61,588 nt of DNA from Clostridia bacterium (GTDB taxonomy: Bacteria > Bacillota > Clostridia > RGIG7378), in the NCBI GenBank assembly GCA_017559445.1, contig JAFYSJ010000008.1, forward strand, positions 1-61,588, read 5' to 3'. How positions within the stretch are numbered: the first letter of the stretch is position 1; each line of letters begins with the position of its first letter. Under the pieces are notes generated by a model that had not been told where the DNA came from, searched no databases, and saw nothing but the letters and a program-made list of their open reading frames with translations. Made by a program: the position numbers and the translations under genes. This document shows, piece by piece, positions 176 through 58,559 of this stretch.

Positions 176-202
176 AATTTTATTAACCTATACTCCTTCA
201 CA

Positions 203-224
203 AATGAGCTTTGCTCGCGGTTCA
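203..224 (+). repeat. Single hairpin-repeat unit at the symporter stop codon
   Basis: GAGC-TTT-GCTC followed by GCGGTTCACTA is one unit of the triloop hairpin family that forms arrays elsewhere in the window. On the minus strand the TAG stop of the symporter runs straight into TGAACC, the conserved joint of the family. Confidence 0.75.
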
Positions 225-1610
225 CTATTTTTCTTTTCTACGGAAAATCTTTGATCTAAACAAAATCACGTTCAATACCAAGAAGAATGCGAACAGGATA
301 ATTGTTGTTAAAATTGGTCTCTGAGGTGCCAATGTGGCTAACAACATAAGTGGGAAACCAAATACAATAGCTGGGAAGTTCTGGTATACCATGTTATCCG
401 CTGCAGGAGTTTTGAACTCGCTGTCAATCTCTCTCAATAAAATAACACCTGTAGATGCTGTACCTGTGAGCATACCGTACATAGCCATGAACTGCTCTTC
501 CTGATACTCCTTGAACAATGTCTTAGCAACGACTCTGTTGTAAGCGTATGTAATAACAAGGCCAACCACACCGAGGATAAGCATAATTACCCAATACTGC
601 TTGAGAACCTCAACTCTAATAGCTGCAACGCCTGCCACAACCATGATGTCATAGAAGAAGTTACCAATACGTGTCATGAGGAAATCGTTTGTGTACTCAC
701 GGTGAATAACCTGTCTCTTGTTGAGCCACTTAAGAACCTGCTTAACCAATGTGGCAGCCAAAACACCAAGCAAGAAGTTAAATCCGTAAATAACAGATGC
801 GAACTTTGGAATAAGTGTTCCCAATACGAACATGATCAAATATGCCAGGAAGTATGTAGAAATAACAATTGCAATCTGCACTGTCATCTTGTCCATGCTA
901 CCCTGCATAGGGATTTCGTTGGAACCCTGAATCTGGTCCAAGGAAATGTCCTTAGCCTGCTGTGCCTTCTTTTCGGCAACTACACCGCGCTTTCTAAGGA
1001 TGTTAAGGTGAATAACACCACCAATGCTTGCACTCAAGAAACCAAGAGCTGCGATGGTAAGTCCAAAACTACTACCACCTACAAATCCAAACTTTGTCTC
1101 AAAAATATTACCATAGTTAAGTGCCTGGCCTGTGCCCTGACCATAACCGAATGGAAGCAAAATACCTGCCCCCTTAAAGAAGCCTGAAATAAACAAAGCT
1201 GCAACAATGGTAATAATCATACCAATGGTACCCTGCAAAAGGTATGTGGCTACAGTAGTAACGCCTGTGTTGAAAATCTCATTTGTACGCTGGCGAGAAA
1301 GCTTTCCTTTGGATGCCTTAAATGTAGAAGCAACAAAGCCCAATGCCAATGCGTGGTATGTCAAAATCTCGAGATTTTCGATACCCTTGCCACCAAAGAA
1401 TGCAGTCTCAAAGAGAACATCTCCAGTAATAAGCTTATAAGCAGATGTAACAATGAGGATAAGTGCGCCACCCAACACAGAGGTTGGAACCAAAGACTCA
1501 CCCAAAAACTTAATCCTGCGCTTAAGCATGTTTGCAACCAAAAGGCTGAACATGAGAAGTGCTATTAAGTTAAAAAATCCCCAGTTACTAAAGTCCCAAA
1601 AATCTTTCAT
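225..1610 (-). CDS. gltS: Sodium/glutamate symporter family protein (GltS/ESS)
   Basis: A 461-residue polytopic membrane protein with about ten hydrophobic segments. The glycine-rich stretch GYGQGTGQALNYG (about 155-167) followed by GGSSFGLTIAALGFLSASIG, and a second pore-like stretch MYGMLTGTASTGVILLR near residue 380, match the repeated re-entrant loops of the GltS family, which imports glutamate with Na+. It is longer and more divergent than E. coli GltS (about 400), so the substrate may differ. The start has a strong site (GGAGGTAGAGG just before ATG) and overlaps the end of the upstream acyltransferase gene by 23 bases, so the two are probably cotranscribed. Confidence 0.75.
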   Translation of the reverse strand: MKDFWDFSNWGFFNLIALLMFSLLVANMLKRRIKFLGESLVPTSVLGGALILIVTSAYKLITGDVLFETAFFGGKGIENLEILTYHALALGFVASTFKASKGKLSRQRTNEIFNTGVTTVATYLLQGTIGMIITIVAALFISGFFKGAGILLPFGYGQGTGQALNYGNIFETKFGFVGGSSFGLTIAALGFLSASIGGVIHLNILRKRGVVAEKKAQQAKDISLDQIQGSNEIPMQGSMDKMTVQIAIVISTYFLAYLIMFVLGTLIPKFASVIYGFNFLLGVLAATLVKQVLKWLNKRQVIHREYTNDFLMTRIGNFFYDIMVVAGVAAIRVEVLKQYWVIMLILGVVGLVITYAYNRVVAKTLFKEYQEEQFMAMYGMLTGTASTGVILLREIDSEFKTPAADNMVYQNFPAIVFGFPLMLLATLAPQRPILTTIILFAFFLVLNVILFRSKIFRRKEK

Positions 1611-5454: not shown

Positions 5455-5638
5455 TCTAGCACAGCGATTCACTAACGAGCTCTGCTCGTAGCTCACTAGG
5501 ACCGAAGGTCCGGTTCACTAGCAACGCAGTTGCGGCTCACTAGCCGAAGGCGGCCTACTAGCGAAGCGGCTCACTAACGAGCTTTGCTCGTGGTTCACTA
5601 GGCGTAGCCGGATCACTAGCGAAGCGGCTCACTCCCAT
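5455..5638 (+). repeat. Triloop-hairpin repeat array (about nine units)
   Basis: Consecutive units of 17-24 nt, each a small palindrome with a three-base loop followed by a GGNTCACTAG-type joint. Examples: CGAGC-TCT-GCTCG, GACC-GAA-GGTC, CAAC-GCA-GTTG, GCC-GAA-GGC, GGC-GTA-GCC. CTAG occurs at seven unit borders. The array fills the gap between two divergent genes (PHP and sugar kinase); the rest of that 350-base gap holds the kinase promoter. Units differ in stem sequence but keep loop size and joint. Confidence 0.85.
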
Positions 5639-17836: not shown

Positions 17837-18808
17837 TTATTTTGGGTGTGAAAATTTAGGCAAATCACTATCTTTAAGATTGTAGTGCCTTTTATTTGTT
17901 ATATAAGCACATTTAGCTTTTCGACAAGGAGTAATATCTCCGTCCAACACATTCATAGCAAGATTAACCATCCTAAGATTATCCATTCCATTCATAAACT
18001 GAATATTAGAAAGCTCATTGCTACCTTGTAAATGAATAATTTGTAAATTCTTCAAGCTAAACAAACATGAAAAATCTTGAATTTTACCACAGCATTCAAT
18101 AGATAACTCCTCTAACGATTCAGCAATCTTGCATAACGCGCTTATATCAGTAAGAACTCTACAATATCCTAGATGCAATTTTTTTAAACCTCTAAACTGT
18201 TCTATTCCATCCAATGTTTTTATTGGACTGAACATAATGGTTAAATCTTGAAGCCCCTTACTTTTACTTATATTCTTTAAGTCTTTATGCTTCTTATTCT
18301 CTCTAATCCACAAATTCTCAAGAGTATCTATCTGCTCAAAATTATTATGTCCTTTACCACATATAACTACCTCTTTTATTCCATTAATTTGAGAGTAATC
18401 AATACTAGCTTTTATTTTATACGGGGCCAATTCCTCTGCATCAGTCATACAACTTAGCATTTCAAATGTTCTACCATACAAAGGAGAATAATCAAATTTT
18501 TCTCCAAATTCAGCAGATGGACGAATTGATAATCTTGTTAATGAAGGGCATTCTTTTACAAACGAAATGTCATCCGCCACTATAGTAGCTTTCTTAATCT
18601 TATAATCGTTAATCAATTTAATATGCTCATCTAAAGACCTTGTAGAAATACGCTCTCCTTTTAAATAAGGATTCACACATTGCTCATTCCTTACTTCAAT
18701 AATATTGTATGGTCTTTCACCTATCTTAGGGAGAGCAAAGAAAATAAAACCATCCCTATTTATCCACAATTCGTCTGCTTCTATAGGTTTATCTATATCA
18801 TTTAGCAT
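17837..18808 (-). CDS. Leucine-rich-repeat protein, candidate immunity protein for the RHS toxin
   Basis: 323 residues, cytoplasmic, no signal peptide. Residues about 165-290 form internalin-like leucine-rich repeats of 22-24 residues (LENLWI, LQDLTI, LKKLHLGYCRVLTDIS, LEELSIECC, LQIIHLQGSNELSNI, LRMVNLAMN). The ATG overlaps the RHS stop by 11 bases, so it is translated together with the toxin, the usual arrangement for a cognate immunity gene. The N-terminal 110 residues are unrecognised. LRR immunity proteins to polymorphic toxins are known in other systems, but this assignment rests on position and lack of export signal. Base composition is AT-rich like the toxin tip. Confidence 0.6.
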   Translation of the reverse strand: MLNDIDKPIEADELWINRDGFIFFALPKIGERPYNIIEVRNEQCVNPYLKGERISTRSLDEHIKLINDYKIKKATIVADDISFVKECPSLTRLSIRPSAEFGEKFDYSPLYGRTFEMLSCMTDAEELAPYKIKASIDYSQINGIKEVVICGKGHNNFEQIDTLENLWIRENKKHKDLKNISKSKGLQDLTIMFSPIKTLDGIEQFRGLKKLHLGYCRVLTDISALCKIAESLEELSIECCGKIQDFSCLFSLKNLQIIHLQGSNELSNIQFMNGMDNLRMVNLAMNVLDGDITPCRKAKCAYITNKRHYNLKDSDLPKFSHPK

Positions 18809-21800
18809 GTAAATAACCCCTTCCTGGACTCCAATATTTATTATAAGTATTTATCCATTTACCATCAATATTATTGCTATTATAATGTTCTAATTGCAAG
18901 AAGTATTCATCGATATACGCTTGTCTATTATTTAGAGACTCAGACCATTCCAAGCTTTTTACGAAATCTCCTTGATTATTATTTGTATTATTTGGTTTGC
19001 ACTTTTCCAATGCGGAACGTATAGCCCTACTAAGAAACCCTTTTCCGTCATACTCCTTTCCTGAATTAAATTTAATCCTATATGATCCCGGTTTTTGGTT
19101 TTTGGGTTCTTTTGCTGCCTTTTTAGCATCTTCTATTACTTTTTCATGACTTCCACTAGATGAAAAAGTAGCTTTGCTATTTTGCGTGCCTGCCCCTCCA
19201 CCTGTCTTTGATGATCCTCCACCAGTATTACTTGGGCCTTCATCGTCAATTGGAGTATCAGCCTCTCCATCAGCAATTTCCTCGTCATAAGTGCCACTTA
19301 CATCTATACGATTAACAGGATTATTACGACAGTAGGCAAACATGTTTTCGCCTAAAATGCCCTGTCCTGTGGATACATAAATATCAGCATTAAGAAATCT
19401 ACCAAAATCAGGATTATAATATCTTGAATTTAAGAAATACAGCTGTGTCTCTGTGTCGTAAACATATCCTCTGTAGCGGATTGGGTTATACTGTCCAAGG
19501 GTATTTGCCTTAGATCCTGTAATTCCTCTTAAGTTGCCCCATGCATCATAAGTGTAATTTACAACTGCTGTACCTGTTCCATCTACTAGAGCCACAATGT
19601 CTCTTTGAGCATTATTTACAGCATAGTATGTATCTACCAAACTACTACTTACATAGTGTATAGCCACCAAACCTGTCTGTCCATACTCGAAGTACATCTC
19701 ACAGATTGTAGTTTCTATTGTTGTGGTAATATCAGCTATTCTTAAGTACTTTAGCGTTATTCCATCATAAATATAGTAATAACTTACCTGCCCATTAGAC
19801 CTAGAGGTTCTTTGGCTACTTGCATCATAAGTATAAGTCCATGTAGTTGTTCCATCGCTCTGCTCTGCAAGCTGTCTACCATGTTCCCACTCATAAGTCC
19901 ATAATCCATCACTTACTGGATTGCCTATCTCATCATAGGTAATAGCATTACCATTGTAACTTGTAAGCAAATCTCCCCAGCTGTTATTTGTATAACCATA
20001 TGTAACGGTCTCTAAAGCTGCACCTAAGTCACCTTGAGTGTAAACATATCTGCTCTTAGAGAGGATATTACCACCTAAATCATAGGTATAAATCCAGGTA
20101 TCTCCATTAGTTACATCATCTACTCGAATCAACTGATCAAGCGAATCATAACTATACCTAACTCCATTTGAATCATTAAAGACATTGTCTGGAGAAATTT
20201 CTGTTATATTACCATTCCTGTCAAACTTATAATAATAACCTGTGCATGTTTCTCCATAAGAATTAATCCACTGTGACAAAATTGCTGTAGTAGATACTCC
20301 ATAATCCATTGCATAATCGCCATTTGGATTTTTATATGTCTTTGTTCTTGTCAAAACAACATTGTTATTTTCTTTAGTAACAACATTTGTAAGCCTACCA
20401 AGACTATCAAAGCCGTAGCTTTGCTTAACAATATTATCATTAATTACGTTTGATCTATTAAATTCTGTTAACCAATTATCTTGATCATAAACATAATTTG
20501 TATGGAAGGACTGATTATTTACTACTTCCTTTAAACATTCAAGATTGTTAATTTGATTGTAAGTATATTCTGTACCATAAAGGATAGTTTCTGTTGTCTT
20601 ATCCTTTACCTCGTATTTCATAAGCCTACTTGTCAAGTCATAGCTATATTGAGTTATAGTATTTGCATCTAAATCCTCAATCTTAATTAGCCTACCAGCT
20701 TGATCATAAGTATACTTAAGACTTGGCTCTGAAGCAGAATCCTCTAGAGAAGTATAGGTTACACTTGTTGTTCTTCCCTGTTCATCGTAAGAGTATTTGA
20801 TACCGTCACCATTTCCGTATGTAATGGCGCTCAAATATCTCTCATAAAGATTGTTATAGGTATAATTTACTAGAACTTCTCCACCTACAGTAATACTATT
20901 AAGCATATCGAATTTGCCATATGTAAAAGCATATGCCGTAGTATCTTCTTCTGAATTGTTTTTGTGTGTTAGCACACTTAATAAATCTACTGTAAATGTG
21001 CTTCCTACAATAGCAGTGTCTTGTCCAACTTTTTTTGAAGTTGCAATTACCCTATACTGTTCATCGTAAATATATTCTGTTCTTGTCTCTTCTGTATCCT
21101 CTGGATTCTTTATCCACAGTAGCAAGGATTCTTCTGTGTCATAACCATATTCTGTCTTATTGCCAGTTGTATCTGTAATGGATGTTAAGAAGGCGCCATT
21201 AAGAGAACCACTATCTTTTGTATATGTGGCCACAACACCCATTTGCTTTTCATTTCCATCTACGCCAACATATACAGCTGTGTTATTGCCGTATACATCG
21301 TATTCAAATGAATACTTAATACCAGTAGGAATTTTAGCAGTCTTTACGTTGTGATGAATGTCATATTCGTAAGTGTATGTGGTGTTGTCAGGAAGCACCT
21401 GCTTTGTGAGGTCGTTGTTCTCATACTCATAAGTTGTTTTACCACCTTGAATATCAACAACAGACTTAACATTACCATTACTATCATAAGTAAAAGAGCT
21501 TCCAAAGGTTTCTTTATAGAGCTGAATACCATCAAAATATGCTGTGTTTACATTGTAGTCATAAAGAAGATAAATCTTTATGCTAGTATAGTTTCCCTTA
21601 GCAACTGCAGCACCAGCTGCATACTGCCATGTGTTAGTAGAATCCATATCTGGGTTAAAGGATATAGAAGCACTATTAACAACAGTTGTTCCATTTAAGA
21701 ACTCAACCTTAATTCCAAAGGTTCTGCTAGTTTCTTCTGTTAGTGGTGCAGAATCACCCTTAGCCCATCCTGAGAATACATAGCAGTCACCGGATTGACC

Positions 21801-24800
21801 TGAAATAGCTATTGTTTGAGAAGAATTAACTTCAGATGTTGGATTACCTGTCATTTTTATAACATAGTTATCCAGAGAATCTGTAGCTGGTGTTCCATTA
21901 GTTATAGCAGTGGTAATATTTGCACGTTGTACATTAGAAGTGGAACTCCTTGACCAGTTAGTTAAACTAGTTCCAGTTCCATAATAAGATATGTCATTAT
22001 TTACAACTAAATTAAGTCTGCTTGCAGAATTTCCTTCTTCTATCTGGAGAGAATCTACATAAATTGTTCCTACACCATCGAAGACAATATATGGCTCAAC
22101 TCTAGTAGTAGTTGTGCCTGTATATTTAAATGTAACTTCTACTCTCTGCCATTCATCCTCTGGAGTATCTATATATAAATACTCACTGTGATTTGCTGTT
22201 TGGAAGTTAAGTCCCAAAGCAAGATAGAATCTACTGTTTGTATTCTCTGTTACGTCCTTTGTATTAACATATGCAGAGAATGTATATGTTTCTCCTGGAG
22301 ATAGGATTAGATCATCCTCATAATTTCTTAGAACACAGGGAGTATCTGCTGGTGAAGATATGGTCATAGCCATTGAACTAGATCTCATATGGCTAATGCC
22401 ATTGGTATAGGTTACAGACCCAGTTGTATAGCCAGAGAGCTTCCACCAATAGTCATCCCAAGACGAACCAGGGCTATAATATCTAAGTCTATTGCCCACT
22501 GTATTCTGCAACTGAGAAGATACCATGAGCTGATTCTTTTTCTCATTAGAGCCTGTATTTGTTAAATTGTCATAGTAGTTATTAGCAAAGCTTGCAAATG
22601 CAGCATTACCCTGGTCATCCTGAATGCATATTGTATTACCCCAGTAATTAAACTGGTAGATATTTGTATGACCAGATCTATCTTGGATAGTGGTCTGATT
22701 ATGGGCATATGTAAATGTAATTCTTCCACCACTGGAAGTATTATTATTTAAATCTGCCTCTTCCTCTATTCTTTTTACCCTGTTAGTAAGTCCTACATTC
22801 CTTGTTGTGTAGTCAAAATTCAATAGATAATCTAACTCTTGACTTGCTCTAGTCATTAGGTGCTTGCTATAAACATCAGAACTTGAATAGGAATAACTAA
22901 ACCAAGTCTCCTTGTTACCATCGTTATACGTAATCTTAGTAAGATTTTGGTTGGAGTCGTAGGTATAGTTAACTCTCTTGTGTGTGGTCTCTGTTGCACC
23001 TCTATATCCAATATAACTTAATAGATTTGTGGAACTATTGTAGTAAAATCTGTATTCTCTAACACTACCATCATCAACATAATAAATTCTGTTGGTGTTG
23101 CCATTGTATCCAATATAAATATACTTCTTATGTTGCTGATTATTCTCAATTTTATAAAGTCTACCTAAACTATCAAAATAACTCTTGTTTTCTTGCTTAT
23201 CTGTAATAATAGCACTCTTTAGTGTTCCATCTGTATTCTTCGTTACAGTCATCTCAAGGCTAGTATTAGCCTCATCCACATATGTGTTTGTTGTTGTGTT
23301 AGCTTTCTTTTCAAAGTAATGGCGTGTACCATCCTCATCTTCCCAAACATAGATGTCATAGAGATAGTTACCATCTGTATACTGGTAAACAAGCTGGTTA
23401 TAGTTAGTTCTCCAACCATATCCCATGCCGAACTGGTTACTTGCTGCATCGTTTGAGTTATATACATGGTAAATGTTAACTGGCATTGTATTTGTTGCAT
23501 AGCCAAGGTCCTCATGTACCCAAACCAGGTTACCTGAGAAGTTATTAACATATCCAACACCTGCTCTATTAGCAGATACAGTTGTATAGTCCCAATATCC
23601 CTCTAAACCACTTGTGTTAATGTGATATACAAACAACATTGGGAGAGGATTAGATCCATCGTTGTCAGATGAATAGAACTTCTTAACATCTGAAGAAGAT
23701 TCGTTGTATGCTGTAAGAGCAATACCATTGTTAATTCCTGTCTGGTACCACTCTCTAGCAATATCTGTAACATCCCATCTGTATTCACCTTGTCCTGTTA
23801 CTACTTGGTAGTCCTCTATTGTGCTAGAGATACTTGGCTGGTTAGCCCATGTAAGAGTTGTTCCATTGGTATGGGAATTCCAGCTAGATGTAACCTTAGA
23901 TGCACTAACTACCATAGATGTGGTGGAAGTATTAGCAGGTGTAACAAGTCTTAAGGCTGCATATGTAACTACATCTCCAGATGTAAGTTCTGGCAATGCT
24001 AAGAACTTAACAAAGGATCTCATCCTTCCATACCAGGAGTCCTTACCAACTCTCATATACATTACGTTATATGCAAAAGTATCTAGGTCGCTATTCTTTT
24101 CTGCTACAGATATATCCTCGATAGACCTAATTGTAGATACTGCCTGTACAATTGGATCTAATGCTACTGGATATGTAGCATTGTCCATCCAGTTAGATGG
24201 AAGGTTATATGTAATTGTCCAATTGCTTGTTTCCTTAGAGGACAGAGCTAACTCTTTAGTAAGGATAACTTCAATATCTTTAGAAATATCTTCGTTAGCA
24301 TCCATAAGGTAAGGAGCCTGGAAAACATAGATTTCCGCTCCTGTTTTACTATCCAAAAGAGATATACTGCCATCCTCTAACAGAGTTGGAGATAGACTGC
24401 CTGCATTTAATGTAAAGGTATAGCTTCTAGCAGCTACATCCTTAGAATCTATAACGATTGTTTCTTTGAGTGTGTATGGGCTTAAGTCATACTTAAGGCT
24501 TACGCCAGAGAATACGTTAGTATATGTAAGACCGGAATATGTCTTGGTTGGTGTTGCAACTTCGTTAACTGTATCACCCTTGATAGGCTGGTTATTTCTT
24601 ACAACTGCAAGGCTAGTATTTACCTTGCTTGTAGATAATACCTTCTCTTCTCCTGCAACAATTGTTGTGGCTCTTGTTTCAAGAATATTCCTTGCAACTA
24701 AATTCTGCTGTGTTTGGAGTGCAAAGGAGATTGTGTAGCTATTATATGTTACGGATATTTCTTTACCATTTCCTGTGTTAGTAGGTAGCTCAACCTTAAA

Positions 24801-25175
24801 GGGAGAATTGCTTGTAGAGAGCACATTTTCTAGGGATCTTGTGGAAGCGTACAATGTATTATCTATTTCTTCCCAGATGTTATTAACTTCAAAGTGAACT
24901 GGTTCTGGGTATACTACAGTTACATGGTGACCATTTTCTAAGATATATTCCTTAGAAACCTCTGTTCTCTTGTCTATAAGCTCGCAAAGAATCCTCTCAT
25001 TGGACAACTCCTCAGGAGATATGTTTTGGGTTATGTCTTGTGTAATTTCCTGTAGATCTGAACTGCCAAGTTCAATAGAAGACAATGCATATACAGCATT
25101 AGGAATAGCTGTAAATACAACTGTAAGTACTAAAATCGATGCAATTATCTTGGCAAATGTGTTTGTTTTGGCCAT
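18798..25175 (-). CDS. Secreted RHS-repeat polymorphic toxin with GIY-YIG-like C-terminal tip
   Basis: 2125 residues. Signal peptide (MAKTNTFAKIIASILVL..., cleavage near AVYALSS, about 25-32). Residues about 360-560 form a WapA-type DNRLRE-like region (MRSFVKFLALPEL, WDVTDIAREWYQTG). Two jelly-roll, CBM-like stretches follow (about 960-1190), then dozens of YD repeats, then the RHS core motif YDTETQLYFLNSRYYNPDFG (about 1890-1910) and NPVNRIDVSGTY. The variable tip starts near residue 1961. Its last 95 residues have G-S-Y (2030-2032), Y-D-G (2042-2044), R2050/R2053, E2090 and N2109, the order and spacing of a GIY-YIG nuclease (Tox-URI-like). Start: AAGGAGG eight bases before ATG. Confidence 0.85.
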   Translation of the reverse strand: MAKTNTFAKIIASILVLTVVFTAIPNAVYALSSIELGSSDLQEITQDITQNISPEELSNERILCELIDKRTEVSKEYILENGHHVTVVYPEPVHFEVNNIWEEIDNTLYASTRSLENVLSTSNSPFKVELPTNTGNGKEISVTYNSYTISFALQTQQNLVARNILETRATTIVAGEEKVLSTSKVNTSLAVVRNNQPIKGDTVNEVATPTKTYSGLTYTNVFSGVSLKYDLSPYTLKETIVIDSKDVAARSYTFTLNAGSLSPTLLEDGSISLLDSKTGAEIYVFQAPYLMDANEDISKDIEVILTKELALSSKETSNWTITYNLPSNWMDNATYPVALDPIVQAVSTIRSIEDISVAEKNSDLDTFAYNVMYMRVGKDSWYGRMRSFVKFLALPELTSGDVVTYAALRLVTPANTSTTSMVVSASKVTSSWNSHTNGTTLTWANQPSISSTIEDYQVVTGQGEYRWDVTDIAREWYQTGINNGIALTAYNESSSDVKKFYSSDNDGSNPLPMLFVYHINTSGLEGYWDYTTVSANRAGVGYVNNFSGNLVWVHEDLGYATNTMPVNIYHVYNSNDAASNQFGMGYGWRTNYNQLVYQYTDGNYLYDIYVWEDEDGTRHYFEKKANTTTNTYVDEANTSLEMTVTKNTDGTLKSAIITDKQENKSYFDSLGRLYKIENNQQHKKYIYIGYNGNTNRIYYVDDGSVREYRFYYNSSTNLLSYIGYRGATETTHKRVNYTYDSNQNLTKITYNDGNKETWFSYSYSSSDVYSKHLMTRASQELDYLLNFDYTTRNVGLTNRVKRIEEEADLNNNTSSGGRITFTYAHNQTTIQDRSGHTNIYQFNYWGNTICIQDDQGNAAFASFANNYYDNLTNTGSNEKKNQLMVSSQLQNTVGNRLRYYSPGSSWDDYWWKLSGYTTGSVTYTNGISHMRSSSMAMTISSPADTPCVLRNYEDDLILSPGETYTFSAYVNTKDVTENTNSRFYLALGLNFQTANHSEYLYIDTPEDEWQRVEVTFKYTGTTTTRVEPYIVFDGVGTIYVDSLQIEEGNSASRLNLVVNNDISYYGTGTSLTNWSRSSTSNVQRANITTAITNGTPATDSLDNYVIKMTGNPTSEVNSSQTIAISGQSGDCYVFSGWAKGDSAPLTEETSRTFGIKVEFLNGTTVVNSASISFNPDMDSTNTWQYAAGAAVAKGNYTSIKIYLLYDYNVNTAYFDGIQLYKETFGSSFTYDSNGNVKSVVDIQGGKTTYEYENNDLTKQVLPDNTTYTYEYDIHHNVKTAKIPTGIKYSFEYDVYGNNTAVYVGVDGNEKQMGVVATYTKDSGSLNGAFLTSITDTTGNKTEYGYDTEESLLLWIKNPEDTEETRTEYIYDEQYRVIATSKKVGQDTAIVGSTFTVDLLSVLTHKNNSEEDTTAYAFTYGKFDMLNSITVGGEVLVNYTYNNLYERYLSAITYGNGDGIKYSYDEQGRTTSVTYTSLEDSASEPSLKYTYDQAGRLIKIEDLDANTITQYSYDLTSRLMKYEVKDKTTETILYGTEYTYNQINNLECLKEVVNNQSFHTNYVYDQDNWLTEFNRSNVINDNIVKQSYGFDSLGRLTNVVTKENNNVVLTRTKTYKNPNGDYAMDYGVSTTAILSQWINSYGETCTGYYYKFDRNGNITEISPDNVFNDSNGVRYSYDSLDQLIRVDDVTNGDTWIYTYDLGGNILSKSRYVYTQGDLGAALETVTYGYTNNSWGDLLTSYNGNAITYDEIGNPVSDGLWTYEWEHGRQLAEQSDGTTTWTYTYDASSQRTSRSNGQVSYYYIYDGITLKYLRIADITTTIETTICEMYFEYGQTGLVAIHYVSSSLVDTYYAVNNAQRDIVALVDGTGTAVVNYTYDAWGNLRGITGSKANTLGQYNPIRYRGYVYDTETQLYFLNSRYYNPDFGRFLNADIYVSTGQGILGENMFAYCRNNPVNRIDVSGTYDEEIADGEADTPIDDEGPSNTGGGSSKTGGGAGTQNSKATFSSSGSHEKVIEDAKKAAKEPKNQKPGSYRIKFNSGKEYDGKGFLSRAIRSALEKCKPNNTNNNQGDFVKSLEWSESLNNRQAYIDEYFLQLEHYNSNNIDGKWINTYNKYWSPGRGYLHAK

Positions 25176-25454: not shown

Positions 25455-25615
25455 ATTCCGCTACTAGCGAATCCGATTACCAGAATCTTGCTGACGTGGA
25501 GCGCACGATGTGCGTGAGATATTCGCTGCTCGAATGTGAAATGATCTCTGGAACATAGGAGCATTCACTAAACACTAAACACCAAACACCAAACACTAGA
25601 TGCGCAGCAAAGTAA
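25455..25615 (+). repeat. Composite repeat block: hairpin units plus heptamer minisatellite
   Basis: It begins with CTACTAGCGAATCC, contains a triloop palindrome CGCAC-GAT-GTGCG (about 25501-25513), and then GGAACATAGGAGCATTCACTAAAC. This runs into five to six heptamers (CACTAAA/CACCAAA, about 25564-25600) and a closing CTAGATGC-GCA-GC. The same parts recur at 31.6, 44.1 and 46.8 kb. It fills the 3' side of proC. Confidence 0.75.
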
Positions 25616-31604: not shown

Positions 31605-31760
31605 TGCTGGTACCTATGTTCCAAAGATGCTGCGCATCTAGTGTTTAGTGTTGAGTGTTTGGTGTTTAGTGCTGGTTTCTTTGTTCCTATGATCTATTTT
31701 TAAAAGGAACATGTTTCATTCGCTAAACACTAATAACTAATCACTAAGCACTGCAAAGCA
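31573..31760 (-). repeat. Heptamer minisatellite and composite repeat
   Basis: On the minus strand: heptamers CACTAAA/CACCAAA (plus strand TTTAGTG/TTTGGTG) at 31573-31604 and 31645-31672, the triloop hairpin AGATGC-TGC-GCATCT at about 31626-31640, and GGAACATAGG. Further degenerate CACTAA units lie at 31720-31752. The first heptamers are inside the pseudouridine synthase frame. Together with the next two entries this fills the 312-base gap before the thioredoxin gene. Confidence 0.75.
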
Positions 31761-31787
31761 TAGCTTTGCAAACCGTGCCTCCCGCGC

Positions 31788-31850
31788 TTCGGAAGTAGCG
31801 GGCGACTTTTGGTTACTTTGGGTCGTTCCAAAGTAATGGATATTCACTAG
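31788..31850 (+). repeat. 63-bp core repeat, copy 1
   Basis: It begins TTCGGAAGTAGCGGGCGAC and ends GGATATTCACTAG, leading directly into a triloop-hairpin array. Inside is a perfect 9-bp stem TTACTTTGG/CCAAAGTAA with loop GTCGTT. Copies 2 (46.6 kb, inverted) and 3 (48.4 kb) differ at about three and four positions. Confidence 0.85.
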
Positions 31851-31919
31851 CCGAAGGCGGTTCACTAGCAACGCAGTTGCGGCCTACTAGCGCAGCGGCT
31901 CACTAGCCGAAGTGGTTCA
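31846..31919 (+). repeat. Triloop-hairpin repeat array (about five units) at the thioredoxin stop
   Basis: Units GCC-GAA-GGC, CAAC-GCA-GTTG, GC-GCA-GC and GCC-GAA-GT, joined by TCACTAG or CTACTAG. The last joint, read on the minus strand, supplies the TGA stop codon of thioredoxin (CAGTGAACC). Confidence 0.85.
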
Positions 31920-32222
31920 CTGACAAAAATACGGTTCAATTTCTTCTCTTTCCCTGTACCCCACAGCCTTTTTTACAGGAACGCCATCCTTAAACAGCAT
32001 GAGCGTAGGCAAATCCAGGGCCCTGTACTTAAATCCAAGTTCCAAACATTCATCCACATTACACCTTACAAAAAGCATTTCTGGATGGTCCTCTGCCATG
32101 GCTTCCACAGTTGGGGCAAGCATTGCACATGGTGCGCACCACTCAGCATAAAAGTCCACGAGCACAGGCTTTGTGCTTTCTAAAACTACCTGTTCAAAAT
32201 TTTCTTTATTTACCTCAAACAT
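31917..32222 (-). CDS. trxA: Thioredoxin
   Basis: 101 residues from ATG 32222 (AAGGA about nine bases upstream). Dithiol-disulfide oxidoreductase of the cytoplasm. Active site WCAPC (about 28-32) with FYAEW before it, and the cis-proline region LDLPTLMLFKDG. WCAPC replaces the common WCGPC, which can shift redox potential. The stop codon lies in the repeat array, so the C-terminal codon (Gln) abuts repeat DNA. Divergent from the ABC exporter gene. Confidence 0.88.
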   Translation of the reverse strand: MFEVNKENFEQVVLESTKPVLVDFYAEWCAPCAMLAPTVEAMAEDHPEMLFVRCNVDECLELGFKYRALDLPTLMLFKDGVPVKKAVGYREREEIEPYFCQ

Positions 32223-46638: not shown

Positions 46639-46697
46639 CGAATTTCCATTACTTTGGAACGACCCAACGTAACCAAAAGTCGCCCGCTACTTCCGAA
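46639..46697 (-). repeat. 63-bp core repeat, copy 2 (inverted)
   Basis: Read on the minus strand it starts TTCGGAAGTAGCGGGCGAC and runs to GTAATGGAAATTCG, with about three differences from copy 1. Unlike the other copies, the hairpin array lies on its 5' side in this reading, as the element and its flank are rearranged. Confidence 0.8.
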
Positions 46698-46805
46698 TGC
46701 ACGAAGTGAAGAGTGGTCCGCTACGCTAGTAGGCCGCAAGCAAAGATTGCTAGTAACCGCAACTGCGTTGCTAGTGAAACGAACGCGTTGCGTTCTAGTG
46801 AAATG
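46698..46805 (-). repeat. Triloop-hairpin repeat array (about four units)
   Basis: On the plus strand units read GCAA...TTGC-TAGTAACC, GCAAC-TGC-GTTGC-TAGTGAAAC and GAACGC-GTT-GCGTTC-TAGTGAAATGG. They are the reverse orientation of the arrays at 5.5, 31.9, 48.5 and 49.7 kb. That matches the plus-strand direction of the gene it follows (M32 peptidase). Confidence 0.8.
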
Positions 46806-46908
46806 GCCATAGGAACACAGATGCATTCACTAAACACCAAACACTAAACACTAGATGCGTAGCATCTTTGGACCAACACTCAACACCAAACACTCAACAC
46901 TAACTTGG
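46806..46908 (+). repeat. Heptamer minisatellite upstream of pyruvate kinase
   Basis: CATAGGAACACAGATGCATTCACTAAACACC, split here by description only, is followed by CACTAAA/CACCAAA heptamers and the triloop hairpin AGATGC-GTA-GCATCT (about 46852-46866). A second series CACTCAA/CACCAAA then ends at CACTAACTTGGAG, directly before the pyk ribosome site. The whole gap 46505-46918 is repeat apart from the terminator; no separate pyk promoter is evident. Confidence 0.75.
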
Positions 46909-48372: not shown

Positions 48373-48436
48373 ATTCGGAAGTAGCGGGCGACTTTGGGTT
48401 GCTTTGGGTCGATCCAATGTAATGGATATTCACTAG
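48373..48436 (+). repeat. 63-bp core repeat, copy 3
   Basis: It matches copy 1 with four substitutions over 63 bases, including one that disrupts the inner 9-bp stem (CCAATGTAA). It is again followed directly by a triloop-hairpin array. Confidence 0.85.
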
Positions 48437-48531
48437 GCGTAGCCGGTTCACTAGCACCAACGGTGAGGCACACTAGCAACGCAGTTGCGGCTCACTAGCG
48501 AAGCGGTTCACTAGCCGAAAGCGGTTCATTA
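48430..48531 (+). repeat. Triloop-hairpin repeat array (about six units) at the tspO stop
   Basis: Units GGC-GTA-GCC, CACC-AAC-GGTG, CAAC-GCA-GTTG, GC-GAA-GC and GCC-GAAA-GC are joined by GGTTCACTAG-type sequences. On the minus strand the tspO stop TAA is followed at once by TGAACCGC, the unit joint. Confidence 0.85.
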
Positions 48532-48999
48532 ATTCAACATCGCTATTCCCAGATTTAAATATCCAGCAAACGTGACCCACAGCAAATATGGCACCATGAG
48601 CCAAGCAGCTGCTGTCGAAATTCGTCGAAACTGCAAAATAGTCACCAAAATCAGCACCCACAGCATGACTAGCCATCCAAATGCCAAATAATATAATTCT
48701 AAATTAAAAAACAATATGCTCCACACAAAGTTAAACACCAGCTGCACACCATAGATTTTTAGAGCATTAGCCACTTCTTCTGAATCAGGATTCTGCTTCA
48801 AAACCAAAAAGGACGCAATTCCAATTAAAACAAACAAAATCGTCCAAACTACGGGAAACAACCATCCAGGAGGAGCCAAGGCCGGCTTTACCAATTCCTG
48901 AAATTTATCCATGGAGCCACTGCTAACCAAGGCAGAAAGTCCTCCCACCAAAAGCGGAATAGCCAAGCACACAAAAAAGCTTAACTTCTTATGTTTCAT
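48529..48999 (-). CDS. tspO: TspO/MBR family membrane protein
   Basis: 156 residues with five membrane helices. Family motifs: LAPPGWLFPVVWTILFVLIGIA (split about 42-63), QLVFNFVWSILFF (about 86-98) and the C-terminal PYLLWVTFAGYLNLGI. TspO proteins bind porphyrins or other hydrophobic ligands and are linked to stress responses; ligand unknown here. Divergent from the HEPN-like gene. The 3' end abuts a repeat array. Confidence 0.92.
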   Translation of the reverse strand: MKHKKLSFFVCLAIPLLVGGLSALVSSGSMDKFQELVKPALAPPGWLFPVVWTILFVLIGIASFLVLKQNPDSEEVANALKIYGVQLVFNFVWSILFFNLELYYLAFGWLVMLWVLILVTILQFRRISTAAAWLMVPYLLWVTFAGYLNLGIAMLN

Positions 49000-49587: not shown

Positions 49588-49596
49588 TTACTCCCT

Positions 49597-49719
49597 AGCG
49601 CGACAGCGCGGCCTACTAGCGCAGCGGATCACTAGCGAACGAAGTGAGCGATCACTAGCGCGATAGCGCGGCCACTAGCCGCTTGCGGTTCACTAACGAG
49701 CTTTGCTCGTGGTTCACTA
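49597..49719 (+). repeat. Triloop-hairpin repeat array (about seven units) at the cotJC stop
   Basis: Units CGC-GAC-AGCG, GC-GCA-GC, CGAACGAAGTGAGCG, CGC-GAT-AGCG, CCGC-TTG-CGG and CGAGC-TTT-GCTCG, joined by CACTAG or CTACTAG. On the minus strand cotJC ends GAT TAG, and this TAG is the start of the joint TAGTGAACC. Confidence 0.85.
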
Positions 49720-50310
49720 ATCAAAAGCTGGATTTATCGCATAGTAGTTGTTGGAATCCAAATGCTCCCTAATATCCGTCAGCATTTCGCCAAATCTCTG
49801 GAAATGCACAACCTCACGAGCCCTAAGGAAACGAATTGCATCCTTTACATCCGGATCATCCACCAAACGCAAAATATTGTCGTATGTCAATCTGGCCTTT
49901 TGCTCAGCTGCCATGTCCTCAAATGCATCCGCAATTGGATCTCCTGTGGACTGAATTGCCGCCGCTGTAAATGGCTCGCCCGATGCCGACTGCGGGTAAA
50001 CGCCCGTGGTATGATCCACAAAGTAAGCGTCAAAACCACTTGCCTTTATCTGCTCCAACGAAAGATTCCTTGTTAACTGATAAATAATAGATCCAATCAT
50101 TTCTTCATGATTAAGCTCCTCAGTACCGACGTCCGTTAAAACGGCAATTCCCTTTTTGTACGGCATAGCAAATCTCTGATTTAAATAGCGTGCCGCAGCA
50201 CCTGCCTCGCCATCTGGTCCTCCAAGCTGTGCAATGATTATCTTTGCCGCAGCAGGGTTGGGTGTCTTTATATTAATTGGATATTGTAATGCTTTCTGGT
50301 AATAAAACAT
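49717..50310 (-). CDS. cotJC: Spore coat protein CotJC (manganese catalase family)
   Basis: 197 residues from ATG 50310. Ferritin-like, di-manganese catalase fold with metal-ligand regions RYLNQRFAMPY, GTEELNHEEMIG (about 62-73) and FLRAREVVHFQRFGE (about 164-178). In spore formers CotJC is packed in the coat and may break down peroxide. Last gene of cotJABC. Its stop codon is part of a repeat joint. Confidence 0.92.
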   Translation of the reverse strand: MFYYQKALQYPINIKTPNPAAAKIIIAQLGGPDGEAGAAARYLNQRFAMPYKKGIAVLTDVGTEELNHEEMIGSIIYQLTRNLSLEQIKASGFDAYFVDHTTGVYPQSASGEPFTAAAIQSTGDPIADAFEDMAAEQKARLTYDNILRLVDDPDVKDAIRFLRAREVVHFQRFGEMLTDIREHLDSNNYYAINPAFD

Positions 50311-50311
50311 G

Positions 50312-50563
50312 TTATACCTGCCTTTCCCATGGCCATGGCGACTCAATCCACTGCCAACTGTCTGTACAATAATTTCCCGACGTGGTCAAAGGGCCAAATC
50401 TCATTTCGTATGTGTTAATCAAACCTGCCAACTCTTCCCTAGTTGACGTGTACTTTGCCATGGCGTCTGCGTCGCATGGATGCGTATCCAAGAAAAGGGC
50501 CGTATCCAACATGCTAAAGCTCTGAACCTGTATACTTTTAATCAATTGCTTTTGTTCTTTCAT
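50312..50563 (-). CDS. cotJB: Spore coat protein CotJB
   Basis: 83 residues from ATG 50563 (AAGGAGG nine bases upstream, inside the end of cotJA). Conserved features are MLDTALFLDTHPCDADAM (about 18-35) and a C-terminal W-x-W-x-E-S-P-W-P-W segment. It overlaps cotJA by four bases and ends one base before cotJC, so the three genes form one unit needed for coat assembly. Function at the molecular level is not known. Confidence 0.92.
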   Translation of the reverse strand: MKEQKQLIKSIQVQSFSMLDTALFLDTHPCDADAMAKYTSTREELAGLINTYEMRFGPLTTSGNYCTDSWQWIESPWPWERQV

Positions 50564-58423: not shown

Positions 58424-58441
58424 ATAGTTTGCGAAAATATA

Positions 58442-58543
58442 ACCTCTTCCATCCAGACTATACTGTCGGTACCGGAATCTAACCGGTTCAGCTAACGCTC
58501 GCGGACTATACCGCCGGTCGGGAATTACGCCCTGCCCTGAAGT
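58442..58543 (-). promoter_or_regulatory. FMN riboswitch (RFN element)
   Basis: The minus strand reads CTTCAGGGCAGGG near its 5' end, then ATTCCCGACCGGCGGTATAG, TCCGCGAGC, GATTCCGGTACCGAC and AGTCTGGATGGAAGAGG, the conserved segments of the six-helix RFN aptamer in order. It begins only about 17 bases after the upp stop, leaving no room for a separate promoter outside upp. Confidence 0.95.
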
Positions 58544-58559
58544 ATTTAATTAATTAAGA

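Follow-up and report, generated by a model that had tools for sequence, protein, structure and literature searches.

The window analysed here is a 61,588-nt stretch of contig JAFYSJ010000008.1 from a Clostridia bacterium (hereafter the host). It contains five tandem arrays of very small hairpins and one isolated unit of the same kind. These features and the repeats adjoining them are as follows.

197..228, + strand, single degenerate unit TTCACAAATGAGC(TTT)GCTCGCGGTTCACTA
5456..5636, + strand, nine-unit array with 9-nt linkers ending in ACTA
31773..31839, - strand, element D, a 67-nt dispersed repeat abutting an array
31844..31924, + strand, four-unit array with element D ahead of it
46646..46697, + strand, partial element D adjoining an array
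46712..46802, - strand, four-unit array within a composite element also present in L015, L021, L049 and partly in L012
46835..46876, + strand, degenerate heptamer stretch (CACCAAACACTAAACACTAG) and a GATGC(GTA)GCATC hairpin, adjoining an array
48374..48425, - strand, partial element D abutting an array
48430..48527, + strand, five-unit array with its 3' end directly against the stop codon of the convergent TspO-family gene (48529-48999, - strand)
49595..49716, + strand, six-unit array ending at the stop codon of a convergent gene (49717-50346, - strand)

A first-pass annotation of this DNA had suggested about nine units at one site and some thirty in the window. We found the nine-unit array at 5456-5636 and counted about 29 units in the five arrays together with the single degenerate one. 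The units at 5456-5636 are, in order, GCACAGC, ACGAGC(TCT)GCTCGT, GGACC(GAA)GGTCC, GCAAC(GCA)GTTGC, GCC(GAA)GGC, GC(GAA)GC, ACGAGC(TTT)GCTCGT, GGC(GTA)GCC and GC(GAA)GC. The array at 49595-49716 includes two tetraloop units of the c(GNNA)g form as well as a unit with tandem G-A pairs, GCGA-AC(GAA)GT-GAGC.

Element D (CCATTACTTTGGAACGACCCAAAGTAACCAAAAGTCGCCCGCTACTTCCGAAGCGCGGGAGGCACGG, 67 nt) was seen at about 15 places in the sampled host sequence, often directly beside a mini-hairpin array; outside the window it occurs in L032, L048, L062, L021, L027, L012, L016, L029 and L009. Degenerate heptamer tandems (AACACTA/AACACCA/AACACTC) adjoin arrays at 31613-31652, 46835-46876 and 25580-25609 of the window. 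A 2125-aa ORF in the window (18798-25175, - strand) contains RHS repeats and a stretch resembling DUF6531; the ORF that follows it (17837-18808) encodes leucine-rich repeats. An FMN riboswitch (58437-58548, - strand) lies ahead of a gene for the substrate-binding component of an ECF transporter; this was the sole Rfam match in the window, and the arrays gave none. In gene content the host resembles Bacillota, as seen in this riboswitch ahead of an ECF transporter gene and in PyrR.

Within the window by itself, the pattern YCACTAG is not strikingly frequent (21 occurrences vs. 14.9 expected from dinucleotide shuffles); what is striking is its clustering. A search of the host genome (1.68 Mb, 96% complete) revealed a family present throughout: the joint GGNTCACTAG occurs 334 times vs. 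3 times for the reversed control, YCACTAG 612 times vs. 170 for the reversed pattern, and ACYAGCGNAGCGG 182 times vs. 0 in the control. With an array defined as at least three joints, 57 arrays making up 1.3% of the DNA were found in 0.94 Mb of host genome sampled as stretches, and none with the reversed control. Among 543 putative units, the hairpin starts straight after the joint in 454, and stems of at least 4 bp directly follow the joint in 269, compared with about 12 after shuffling. The proposal of a repeat family marked by its structure together with a short conserved tag thus holds genome-wide. A published account of such a mini-hairpin array family was not found in text searches of open-access papers, so that, as far as open-access text shows, the tandem mini-hairpin arrays are a real and undescribed family. 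Phage and plasmid collections gave no match to them, and viral contigs contained no array, the one match there being isolated.

Several features of the units are strict. All units in one array face the same way, and the linkers between them are 8 or 9 nt long in 407 of 408 cases in the host arrays. Arrays reach 20 units in the host genome, with only weakly structured unit order. The linker ends in ACTA in 347 of 395 scored cases, and most of the others come from reading these palindromes on the other strand. The first-pass annotation had taken CTAG as the unit border and conserved tag. This does not stand: the true border is ACTA|hairpin, stems that start with A read CTAA, and outside the host genome CTAG is not kept, but ACYA is. 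CTAG is a by-product, because ACTA precedes a stem beginning with G. Linkers are tied more closely to the hairpin upstream of them (z 19.6) than to the one downstream (z 12.3), and thus what is copied is a hairpin with its 3' linker.

The hairpins fall into about 13 discrete types with stems of 2-6 bp, each copied many times. They comprise GC(GNA)GC, GCC(GAA)GGC, GGC(GYA)GCC, GCAAC(GNA)GTTGC, GCACC(AAC)GGTGC, GGACC(GAA)GGTCC, GCAAGC(TYY)GCTTGC, ACGAGC(TYT)GCTCGT, GCGC(GNNA)GCGC, GAACGC(AAC)GCGTTC and GCTCCGC, as well as GCGA-GT(GAA)AC-GAGC and GCGA-AT(GCA)AT-GAGC, which fold only with tandem sheared G-A pairs. The commonest units are GCGCAGC, GCGTAGC and GCGAAGC. It had been claimed that stem sequences vary while pairing is kept. 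Between unit types this is correct; as a description of drift it fails, since the types are discrete copied sets. Otherwise alike composites exchange whole paired units, with GCAAGC(TTT)GCTTGC in L015 and L049 replaced by ACGAGC(TTT)GCTCGT in L021. Re-dealing of distinct units, a weak test confounded by the mixing of unit types of equal length, likewise gave little sign of the expected covariation, i.e., of compensatory drift within types.

The loops are more uniform than the stems. Triloops closed by C-G (types GC, GCC, GGC, GCAAC and GGACC) are GNA in 262 of 276 units, the middle base being free. Such loops form the extraordinarily stable d(GCGNAGC) DNA mini-hairpins, with a sheared G-A pair (Yoshizawa 1997, as cited in PMC6479982). 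The tetraloops of the 4-bp type are GNNA in 27 of 36 units; their third base is always a pyrimidine (GNYA), and GNRA never occurs. d(cGNNAg) is also a stable DNA tetraloop. The absence of GNRA suggests that the loops are selected or recognised as DNA rather than as RNA. Nearest-neighbour folding with standard DNA parameters, which give no bonus for GNA, indicated no clear strand preference.

To investigate where the arrays lie, we compared them with the neighbouring genes. None of the 57 is inside an ORF, and they occupy dozens of scattered intergenic sites. Of 46 cases that could be scored, 31 have the gene at the array 3' end pointing towards the array, so that the array is antisense to this gene, and the median gap between the array 3' end and the stop codon of the convergent gene is 2 nt. 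Where the 5' end of an array is next to the 3' end of a gene, the gap is about 100 nt. On the reverse strand the linkers read CTAGTGARCC or CTAGTAGGCC, which contain tandem stop codons (TAG-TGA). By supplying these stops, the reverse linkers probably make insertions at gene ends tolerable.

Comparison with a congener (G001), which has no arrays, located two sites where the neighbours are orthologous and in the same order. The host carries 368 nt with about 10 joints at L038, compared with 95 nt without an array in G001 (L247), and 312 nt at L049, compared with 85 nt without an array (L278). Two orthologous sites are without an array in the congener, each a single pairwise comparison that fits gain and loss alike. 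Synteny with pyruvate kinase in G001 gave no match.

The arrays also move with, and multiply within, larger segments. A 47-nt terminator segment together with an array is found behind two unrelated genes (L014 and L058). L054 contains three copies of another terminator cassette, two of them with an array and one without. The positions of the terminator cassettes behind unrelated genes are L054 190-238, 2961-2994 and 3802-3851, L014 18819-18880 and L058 1285-1331. Many arrays (L063, L049, L015, L022) contain repeated blocks of 2-4 units; in L063 a two-unit block recurs about 7 times, and L049 has three copies of a 72-nt block. Thus, arrays also grow through duplication of multi-unit blocks.

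An exact-pattern scan of 85k species genomes yielded one rumen Muribaculaceae genome with the same design (L089, G060). Its linker is GGTCTACCA, the pattern CTACYAGCGNAGCG has 25 matches vs. 0 in the control, and its hairpins include GCGNAGC, GTGAAAC, ATGCAAT, GCCGAAGGC and GCGCGAAGCGC. Two further Muribaculaceae genomes contain related arrays: G369 has one array of the G060 GGTCTACCA design, and G486 has a 13-unit array of GCGAAGC with linker GACAAAACCA. Just 5' of the hairpin, ACCA is found in 39 of 43 G060 units, and ACCA or ACTA in 12 of 12 G486 units. What the host and these three genomes have in common is ACYA followed by a c(GNA)g hairpin at a spacing of 16-24 nt; the linkers differ. 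The design is missing from most relatives: nearly all other matches are isolated singles (in 295 Bacteroidales, 247 Muribaculaceae and 398 own-phylum genomes), and in the Bacteroidales and the host's own phylum, apart from G060 and the host itself, these scattered singles are at about control level. The single matches inspected in Bacteroidales look coding, e.g., in thymidylate synthase.

Some additional repeats were observed in these genomes. In G060, heptamer tandems (ATGCACA, TTAATTC) adjoin hairpin arrays at loci L125-L142, so both lineages have heptamers. In G486, a GCGAAGC/GCGGAGC array with a GACAACACCA linker (L166:7348-7470) apparently lies within the start of a lipoprotein-like ORF. 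Short tandem arrays in Muribaculaceae, at L168:9346-9443 of G486 (CTAGAAGTTCTAG, TTTA joints) and at L171:399-578 (AAAGACCGTAAGGACAT), may be further mini-repeat designs.

The first-pass annotation drew a parallel with REP elements mobilised by RAYT transposases and suggested that a Y1 gene might be flanked by the units. No such gene was detected in the readable assembly of the host, either with PF01797 or with a profile of 21 Muribaculaceae Y1 proteins (none at E<=10); contigs C12 (65.6 kb) and C16, together 68 kb, read as N and might hide one. Y1 genes are present in G060, G369 and G486. The five of these that were scanned scored best as IS200-type and fell below the cut-off for REP_Tyr_transpos, and the small Muribaculaceae Y1 proteins carry YxxxQxxHH, the motif of TnpA-Y1 subclass 1.2. 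Members of this subclass have been described as lacking, in general, both REPs and terminal IS200 secondary structures (PMC6006769).

We then analysed the flanks of Muribaculaceae Y1 genes, counting c(GNA)g hairpins with a stem of at least 4 bp within 500 nt at 30 loci and in control windows. Such hairpins are present on at least one side of 22 of the 30 loci and on both sides of 16 (controls, 17% and 1.3%, respectively), and their density is 0.93/kb compared with 0.17-0.23/kb. Their layout is inverted (25:9 upstream, 31:7 downstream). At the Y1_Tnp loci L187-L223, the flanking inverted c(GNA)g hairpins often take the form of REPIN-like repeats some 70-90 nt long. One Y1 gene of G369 has an array on either side, with about 13 units in one and about 25 in the other; these units are composed of CTAC(T/A)GTGG and GTCGAAGAC, and arrays of this kind, whose linker is not GGTCTACCA, were found nowhere else in that genome. 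The Y1 genes of G060 and G369 are not directly beside the GGTCTACCA arrays. The concentration of c(GNA)g hairpins at Y1 genes indicates that hairpins of this class are part of Y1 biology in the Bacteroidota, and the host arrays may have been made by a Y1 enzyme of that kind. Thus, the parallel with REP/RAYT systems is supported by the shared design and the Y1-flanking hairpins in Muribaculaceae, and is not supported by any RAYT-like gene in the host.

Considering these observations, we favour, with a probability of about 0.5, the hypothesis that the mini-hairpin arrays are REP-like single-strand elements spread by a Y1/HUH enzyme that is absent from or unseen in the host, and that they have been further multiplied by block duplication. 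The unit would be a mini-hairpin, usually c(GNA)g with a 2-6 bp stem and ACYA at its 5' foot, joined head to tail by 8-9 nt linkers. Like the enzymes of IS200/IS605 and TnpA-REP systems, a Y1 (HUH) transposase would read the hairpin together with the guide tetranucleotide 5' of it, and would cut and join single-stranded copies into new sites. A guide tetranucleotide 5' of the hairpin and a single-strand mechanism are known from Y1 systems (PMC6006769, PMC8266576). Arrays would then grow by slippage or unequal recombination between hairpins and would survive mainly where they do no harm, in intergenic regions and often with their 3' ends placed at convergent stop codons. If the enzyme has been lost from the host or is unseen there, the host arrays may be passive leftovers that still recombine. 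Some features speak against transposition: the stems are shorter than those of published REPs, one array contains many hairpin types, inverted pairs are missing, and two units, GCGAGTGAAACGAGC and GCGAATGCAATGAGC, fold only with tandem sheared G-A pairs.

The absence of a Y1 gene from the readable host assembly also fits a different explanation, in which replication spreads the arrays without a dedicated enzyme, through template switching, slippage and ectopic gene conversion at stall sites formed by the stable hairpins. The block duplications in L063 and L049, the degenerate heptamer stretches that adjoin arrays in the two lineages and the copying of an array with its terminator behind unrelated genes are all consistent with it. 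However, replication by itself leaves unexplained why the same 13 types and strict 8-9 nt linkers are found at dozens of unrelated sites, why ACYA and c(GNA)g recur in Bacteroidota and why hairpins cluster at Y1 genes, and we consider this explanation doubtful, with an appreciable but minority chance of being right. An RNA function, as transcribed 3'-UTR structures (stabilisers, attenuators or terminators) under RNA selection, might be suggested by the position near gene 3' ends, a median of 2 nt from the convergent stop, and by the RNA-level action proposed for some REPs (PMC3733652). On the other hand, GNYA tetraloops to the exclusion of GNRA and GNA triloops are stable loops of the DNA type, no U-run follows the units, a separate terminator precedes the array in L014, L058 and L054, arrays run in either direction relative to flanking genes (antisense to the gene at their 3' end in 31 of 46 cases), and Rfam gives no match; such a function is improbable. 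Intrinsic terminators were rejected as an identity for the units, which are followed by ACTA-ending linkers and not by a T-run, with real terminators standing beside some arrays.

Mosaic arrays of up to 20 units at many chromosomal places, built from a limited set of modules, also recall a system of site-specific cassettes resembling attC or CRISPR, with a recombinase that captures units, e.g., for defence. The units contain no unique spacers or genes, and the dozens of scattered loci have no leader, no fixed neighbour gene and only a weakly structured order, which makes such a system very improbable. A CRISPR array, which would have cas genes and identical repeats separated by unique spacers, was rejected because both hairpins and linkers recur across loci, and attC-like cassettes because the units lack genes and the scattered loci have no fixed neighbour gene. 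It is also possible, though on the whole unlikely, that the arrays represent a new class of mobile DNA, assembled in varying combinations from about 12 extraordinarily stable single-strand mini-hairpins and placed in unrelated gut-bacterial genomes by a single-strand enzyme that reads ACYA and the c(GNA)g loop rather than the stem. That enzyme might be TnpA-Y1 subclass 1.2 or one still to be recognised.

Compared with known systems, the arrays resemble REP, BIME and REPIN elements in forming hundreds of short extragenic palindromes, mostly downstream of genes and clustered, with a tetranucleotide beside the hairpin. However, their stems are 2-6 bp rather than 6-13 or 7-20 bp, each array mixes many stem types where a REP family has a single stem sequence, all its units lie in one orientation with no inverted pairs and with linkers of 8-9 nt, and, unlike in TnpA-REP (RAYT) systems, a cognate RAYT/Y1 gene was not found in the readable host assembly. 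A REP-like GTAG is present in the reverse linkers TAGTAGGCC (host, 76 of 408) and TGGTAGACC (G060). It lies 3 nt from the stem both in the host, where it is confined to GGCCTACTA-type linkers, and in G060, where almost every linker has it; in GTAG-type REPs the GTAG/GTGG tetranucleotide is 0-2 nt away. The arrays share with GTAG-type REPs an extragenic location (0 of 57 in an ORF), a high copy number (334 joints) and a bias to positions downstream of genes. As in IS200/IS605 elements, a putative guide tetranucleotide stands directly 5' of the hairpin foot; unlike those elements, the arrays have neither a gene nor matching left and right ends. With moderate probability they work like a REP/IS200 substrate, and we do not class them as REP. 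In cyanobacteria, small dispersed repeats, mobile-looking hairpins of 20-odd nt beside degenerate heptamer tandems (STRR), were reportedly described by Elhai in 2008. The host arrays are like them in having hairpins beside heptamers and probably differ in sequences and layout. The d(GCGNAGC) mini-hairpins have the same sequences as units of the arrays and are familiar from oligonucleotide work rather than as repeats in genomes.

If the preferred reading of Y1-spread, REP-like arrays is true, these would be the smallest REP-like design known to us, with hairpins of 7 nt, chosen by loop chemistry and not by the stem, across unrelated lineages. A c(GNA)g hairpin with a 5' tetranucleotide would be a candidate substrate for TnpA-Y1 subclass 1.2, whose activity on it is directly testable; we propose (GCGAAGCGGTCTACCA)3 as single-stranded assay material and GCGAGTGAAACGAGC and GCGCGATAGCGC as folding units. 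It would also give a natural genomic role to the d(GCGNAGC) mini-hairpins, which have hitherto been mostly an oligonucleotide curiosity.
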